44,633 bases of DNA from assembly GCA_026786085.1 (NCBI GenBank), contig JAJAYT010000506.1, forward strand, positions 1-44,633. The letters run 5' to 3'. The position numbers and the translations under genes are program-made. Source of the stretch: Microcoleus sp. CAN_BIN18. Lineage in GTDB: Bacteria > Cyanobacteriota > Cyanobacteriia > Cyanobacteriales > Microcoleaceae. Of the stretch, positions 29,580-32,216 are shown piece after piece. How positions within the stretch are numbered: the stretch's first letter is position 1; every line of letters begins with the position of its first letter. Under the pieces are notes generated by a model that was not told where the DNA came from, ran no database searches, and saw only the letters and a list, made by a program, of their open reading frames with translations.

Positions 29580-29937
29580 TAATTTGGTAATTGGTAATTG
29601 TTGACTGCTCTCCTGTCAACTGCCAACGGCTTCCTTTGCCTAATTAGTCAATTTTCGCGATCGGGTTTTGGTTGGGTTGAACTGAGGTTAAATCGTGTTG
29701 TGCGATCGACCCAACCAAATCCAGAATCAGTTATAATAGACTTTGGAACAAAAAATTTTGTTTAGCAACCAAAATTTTCCATTTCAAAATAAAACGGTAA
29801 ATGTTTTTCAATCCTCAACCAAAACCTATCATTCATTTTTTATTAGTTTGGTCAAATATGCAGCAAAACAGTTGACTGCTGAACCCAAACTATTCTGCGT
29901 AAATCCAGCTCGGCATCTAATCAAAATCAAAAAAAGA

Positions 29938-30755
29938 ATGACAATAGCAACACAAGACAAACTTCAATACAATTGGAAGCACGTTATTAGTTTAGCAGGA
30001 CTTCACATCGGCGCTTTGTTCGCATTGCTTCCGAGTAACTTTAACTGGACAGCAGTTGGTTTAACAGTATTTATGCACTGGATAACCGGCGGTTTGGGAA
30101 TAACTCTCGGATGGCATCGCCTGCTCACCCACCGCAGTTTTCAGACACCAAAATTCGTAGAATATTTTCTAGCATTTTGTGGAGCCCTGGCCTGTCAAGG
30201 AGGAATAATTGATTGGGTTGGGCTGCACCGCTTGCACCACACCAACTCTGACCAAAATGCGATCGACCCTCACAACGCCCAGAATGGTTTTTGGTGGAGT
30301 CACATCGGCTGGATGCTGTATAAAGGCCCCGCTCACGCTGAAATTTCCCGCTGCACAAAAGACATTTCGAGCGACCCATTTTACCAATTTTTGCAAAATT
30401 ACTTTCTCCCGATCCAAATCGTCTTTGGCGTGTTGCTTTACTTAGCAGCAGGCTGGTCATTTGTAGTTTGGGTAATTTTTGCCCGCTTAATTTTGGTATA
30501 TCACTGCACCTGGTTTGTGAATAGCGCCACTCACAAATTTGGCTACCGCACATACGAAACAAAAGATAGTTCTACTAACTGTTGGTGGTTGCAGTTTTGA
30601 CTTACGGCGAAGGCTGGCACAACAACCACCACGCTTATCAATACTCTGCCCGTCACGGTATGAAATGGTGGGAATTTGACTTCACTTGGATGACAATTCA
30701 ATTTTTGGAAGCAGTAGGTTTGGCTAGTAAGGTGAAATTACCACCAGCAAAATAA
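29938..30755 (+). pseudogene. Second DesC-like desaturase, apparent single-base frameshift near 30585
   Basis: Frame 1 runs to TNCWWLQF*; the remaining LTYGEGWHNNHHAYQYSARHGMKWWEFD... continues in another frame to TAA at 30753. Paralogue reads TNCWWVAVLTYGEGWHNNHH, so one G appears missing in tggtgg(g)ttgcagtt. Confidence 0.85.
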
Positions 30756-30828: not shown

Positions 30829-30919
30829 ACTAAAAAGATTAGTGAGCAGTAAAAACTACAAACTTAGGAAATAATGTCATTGCGCTTCGGGAAAGCAATC
30901 GCAGGGACTTGAGATTGCC

Positions 30920-31053
30920 ATCCATAGCTCAATACGGTTCACTTAAGACAGTCCGTTGGGAAAACGACGTTAAAAATAGACACGCTCGTTTGCTTCGTGG
31001 GTACACTCGCAATGACAAAAAAAGCGTTAAGTAAACCGTATTGATCCATAGCT
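30920..31053. mobile_element. 114-bp MITE (30930-31043) with 10-bp target site duplication
   Basis: TSD atccatagct at 30920-30929 and 31044-31053; TIRs CAATACGGTTCACTTAA / TTAAGTAAACCGTATTG (16/17). Confidence 0.88.
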
Positions 31054-31138: not shown

Positions 31139-31195
31139 TACTAATGACAAATGACAAATGACAAATGACAAATGACTAATAACTAATAACTAATT
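31139..31195. repeat. Heptamer tandem repeats (TGACAAA)n/(TAATAAC)n
   Basis: actaatgacaaatgacaaatgacaaatgacaaatgactaataactaataactaatta. Confidence 0.9.
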
Positions 31196-32039: not shown

Positions 32040-32212
32040 TGGAAATGGGTAATGGGTAATGGGTAATGGGTAATGGGTAATTGGTAATTGGTTTTTGTCA
32101 GTAGTTATTTGTTATTTGTTATTTGCAAGCAACTACTAATAACCAGTAACCAATAACCAGTAACCAATAACCAATAACCAATGACTAATGACTAATGACT
32201 ACTGACTAATGA
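32040..32212. repeat. Heptamer tandem arrays in opposing orientation between potB and potC
   Basis: (GGGTAAT)n/(TGGTAAT)n followed by (AACCAGT/AACCAAT)n and (GACTAAT)n. Confidence 0.9.
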
Positions 32213-32216
32213 CTTC

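Follow-up and report, generated by a model that had tools for sequence, protein, structure and literature searches.

The window analysed here, a stretch of 44,633 nucleotides from Microcoleus sp. CAN_BIN18, corresponds to one contig (C506) of a draft host assembly (6.03 Mb, 668 contigs, 94% complete). A desaturase gene and an ABC permease gene converge on a 434-bp gap, the final stop codon of the desaturase frame ending at 30755 and the permease ORF, located on the minus strand, ending at 31190. A 114-bp segment sits in this gap, and the sequence itself reads ATCCATAGCT on both sides of it (Table 1).

Table 1. Features in and beside the 114-bp segment (window coordinates; TIR, terminal inverted repeat; TSD, duplicated target)
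Feature	Position	Strand	Remark
Separate older dispersed repeat tgtcattgcgcttcgggaaagcaatcgcagggacttgagattgcc, beside the insertion and outside the MITE	30874..30919	+	in both empty sites
TSD, left copy ATCCATAGCT	30920..30929		single copy where two relatives have an empty site (ACCCATAGCT / ACCCATACCT)
MITE, 114 bp, non-coding, subfamily A	30930..31043		
Left TIR CAATACGGTTCACTTAA	30930..30946	+	
Core akin to the dispersed TGTCATTGCGAG...CGAAGCAAtC palindrome, common to subfamily A	30981..31017	-	
Right TIR CAATACGGTTTACTTAA	31027..31043	-	
TSD, right copy ATCCATAGCT	31044..31053		

The 17-bp TIRs match at 16 of 17 positions, the TSD is perfect (10/10 bp), and a repeat finder independently recovers both the inverted ends and the duplicated target. 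At fewer than three mismatches the end motif is present in the window at the two element ends only. The segment is short (MITE size criterion, less than ~600 bp) and contains no transposase ORF, the sole ORF across it being a chance 80-aa frame on the minus strand. The sequence-only reading had described the length, the duplication and the ends exactly as they are, and its statement that no protein is encoded holds. It had also reported the TGTCATTGCG motif inside the element and, inverted, outside it; these copies lie at 31008 (minus strand) and 30875 (plus strand). The segment at 30930–31043 is a MITE of an already known kind, a new member of a family.

The end sequence (at most one mismatch) occurs at 64 + 65 places in the host assembly, versus 0 + 1 for the reversed control. 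Paired copies were collected from stretches of the assembly, a census that may miss some copies. This gave 56 end pairs, one of which bridges two neighbours, i.e., ~55 elements, all 100–173 bp long except for this composite pair. Among the 53 pairs with complete flanks, a perfect 10-bp TSD is found in 28 and a TSD with one mismatch in 12, and no pair shows a perfect duplication of 8, 9, 11 or 12 bp (0/53). In view of the abundance of the end sequence relative to its control and of the frequency of perfect 10-bp duplications, the structure at 30920–31053 is far beyond chance. Targets of the family favour a central TATA (T, A, T and A at positions 4–7 in 29, 35, 35 and 34 of 40 sites, respectively); in the 114-bp copy these positions read CATA. 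Several host contigs terminate at or near copies of the end sequence, and the family may therefore contribute to assembly breaks.

With the 114-bp query, copies were detected in 14 of 30 genomes, each of the 14 belonging to the host's genus. The 11 genomes that represent other families of the order gave no copy. At the orthologous locus of two Microcoleus relatives (G014 and G036) both flanks match with a 10-bp overlap, and the element is absent. The sequences of these empty sites (...GAGATTGCC-ACCCATACCT-CACAAT in G014 and ...GAGATTGCT-ACCCATAGCT-CACAAT in G036) lack exactly the element and one target copy. Another genome, G037, carries a 96%-identical copy at an unrelated place (TSD AAATATAATT), and this insertion site is empty, again with a 10-bp flank overlap, in five genomes, namely the host, G001, G009, G014 and G036. 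The simplest reading of these alignments is that the MITE moved after these species diverged. The sequence-only reading had proposed a search of the host genome and a look for empty sites in related strains. Far from being a single copy with no empty site, the element is multi-copy, and its site is empty in two relatives. Sites of presence and absence could be used as strain markers.

Clustering of the interiors of the collected pairs gives three groups (n = 26, 23 and 7), which have the ends alone in common. The core of subfamily A, to which the 114-bp copy belongs (GCGATTGCTTCG...CTCGCAATGAC), is the dispersed TGTCATTGCG palindrome, which is also found without MITE ends. The 10-mer TGTCATTGCG occurs at 97 places in the host genome versus 2 for the control, and lies inside 20 of the collected pairs. 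Subfamily B contains CCCCCTAAATCCCCCTTAA (49 in the host genome versus 1 for the control; e.g., L031 1501–1637). Subfamily C contains GGTAGGGGCGG (e.g., L022 1092–1227), whose dispersed nature is weaker, since it is found 27 times in the host genome versus 13 for the control. The TCATTGCG motif represents a dispersed repeat in its own right, which forms the core of subfamily A and is also located outside it. Beside the element the dispersed palindromic repeat TGTCATTGCG...GAAAGCAATCGCAGGGACTTGAGATTGC is conserved in both empty sites and is therefore older than the insertion. The inverted TCATTGCG pair was considered as a part of the element and rejected, since both empty sites already contain its outer copy. 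At locus L014 (1499–1835) two subfamily-A MITEs stand side by side, ~130 bp apart.

An autonomous partner was sought in the genomes of relatives with an IS4 transposase model. In the same genus, Microcoleus sp. FACHB-61 (G013, contig JACJNY010000054.1) possesses the likely partner, a 1486-bp IS with the same ends as the MITE (loci L076/L161). Both of its ends are CAATACGGTTTACTTAAG, its TSD is ATTTATTACC (10 bp), and its single intact ORF encodes a transposase of 408 aa. This protein matches PF13006 (Nterm_IS4, 65 bits), PF01609 (DDE_Tnp_1, 58 bits) and NF033592 (186 bits; cut-off 115), and carries the YREK signature Y-(2)-R-(3)-E-(6)-K as YHQRWEVENTIDEFK; a phmmer search against PDB gave no relative. 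In G017 there is a decayed copy whose ends are the same, and fragments occur in G002, G012, G036, G006 and others. A sister IS4 element, with a transposase 63% identical, occurs in Desmonostoc muscorum FACHB-395 (L162 1934–3408); its ends are CAATACTTCTCGGTTAAG and its 10-bp TSD is perfect (AAACACGTCT). In this sister element the ends diverge in their inner part, together with the transposase.

For subgroup IS4 of the IS4 family a length of 1400–1650 bp, ends of the form -AATR--------WTW and direct repeats of 10–13 bp are given (Table 1 in De Palmenaer et al. 2008, PMC2266710). The FACHB-61 IS agrees with this subgroup in its length, ends, 10-bp repeat, YREK signature and single uninterrupted transposase ORF, whereas the MITE differs from it in having no transposase and an interior not derived from the IS. 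The MITE and the IS have only the terminal 18–22 bp in common, their interiors being unrelated, and hence they are paired on the basis of the ends and the length of the TSD. The earlier proposal of a non-autonomous, IS4-type element is borne out, as a related species carries a full-length IS of the IS4 family whose ends are the same and whose TSD is 10 bp.

The draft host assembly (94% complete, 668 contigs) contains no homologue of the FACHB-61 transposase. Consequently, the partner IS is either lost from the host, unassembled, or supplied from outside; the draft assembly may have lost it. Host transposases with PF01609 were considered for this role and rejected, as none of their 9 places bears MITE ends in the flanks examined. 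In a literature search on the end sequence, the matches listed were unrelated papers only.

The most likely reading, and a very probable one, is cut-and-paste movement of the MITE by a transposase of the IS4 family (subgroup IS4). Such a DDE transposase would recognise the ~18-bp ends CAATACGGTTYACTTAAG and move the MITE in trans. A 10-bp staggered cut would be made upon insertion at TATA-centred targets, and repair of the cut would produce the 10-bp direct repeat. The transposase of the FACHB-61 IS, or a close relative absent from the host or unassembled in it, is the probable mover. At this locus the MITE inserted into the convergent intergenic gap between the desaturase gene and the ABC-transporter permease gene. 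No new mechanism is implied. A MITE family spread through the genus Microcoleus, together with its likely IS4-type partner, is now documented.

Alternatively, the MITE could be an internal-deletion derivative of the IS, retaining both ends and residual IS sequence rather than a foreign interior. The identity of its ends with those of the FACHB-61 IS agrees with such an origin, as do three subfamily-A copies of 103–105 bp, which align to the IS end over 45 bp (78%). However, the 114-bp copy itself matches the IS over the last 18–22 bp only, the interiors form three unrelated groups, and the core of subfamily A is a repeat dispersed without the ends as well, all of which makes this origin unlikely. 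The abundance of the palindromic core TGTCATTGCG could also suggest a REP/ERIC-like palindrome spread otherwise (e.g., by a REP-associated tyrosine transposase), with the duplication being incidental. This explanation is refuted by the exact 10-bp duplications in over half of the copies with complete flanks and by empty sites that lack precisely the element and one target copy; both point to staggered-cut DDE transposition.

Retention of the element by the host, as a transcription terminator acting in both directions or as a hairpin for RNA stability between the converging genes, is very improbable. The position in the convergent gap is suitable for it, and the single DNA strand folds better than shuffled sequences (-19.2 kcal/mol, z = -3.0), but the fold consists chiefly of TIR–TIR pairing. 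Moreover, a promoter and terminator search of the gap gave no such sites, an Rfam search of the gap gave no match, and close relatives have an empty site. The MITE is probably without function at this locus.

Nezha, a cyanobacterial MITE of a similar size class, is reported from genera other than Microcoleus; the review PMC10969869 cites it (Zhou et al. 2008). Prokaryotic MITEs in general (review PMC10969869) resemble the Microcoleus family in being short and non-coding, in having TIRs and a TSD, and in copies far outnumbering the autonomous partner. One modest curiosity distinguishes this family from them, namely three subfamilies in the same genome with identical ends and three different interiors. 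It is conceivable, though doubtful, that in this lineage one IS4-type end pair independently captured three dispersed palindromes, giving rise to subfamilies A (TGTCATTGCGAG), B (CCCCCTAAATCCCCCTTAA) and C (GGTAGGGGCGG). If so, IS ends would repeatedly trap REP-like palindromes and provide them with a second mode of spread. The same ends around different palindromes represent a tractable case for the origin of MITE interiors.

Two desaturase genes stand in tandem, and the interrupted one is the second. Its ORF (29743–30600) breaks early, well upstream of the element, where a single base is deleted from a G run (30585–30600). The frame is intact in ~25 orthologues of relatives, none of which has the G-run deletion, and the deletion is therefore either a mutation specific to the host or an error of the assembly. 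The sequence-only reading had placed the element next to a broken desaturase; the early break is confirmed, but it is independent of the element. The MITE was rejected as its cause, since the one-base deletion is a separate event and the MITE lies 174 bp past the stop codon. On the opposite side of the gap, short tandem runs (aatgacaaatgac; taatgggtaatggg) at 31140–31190 and 32045–32215 flank the ABC permease gene.
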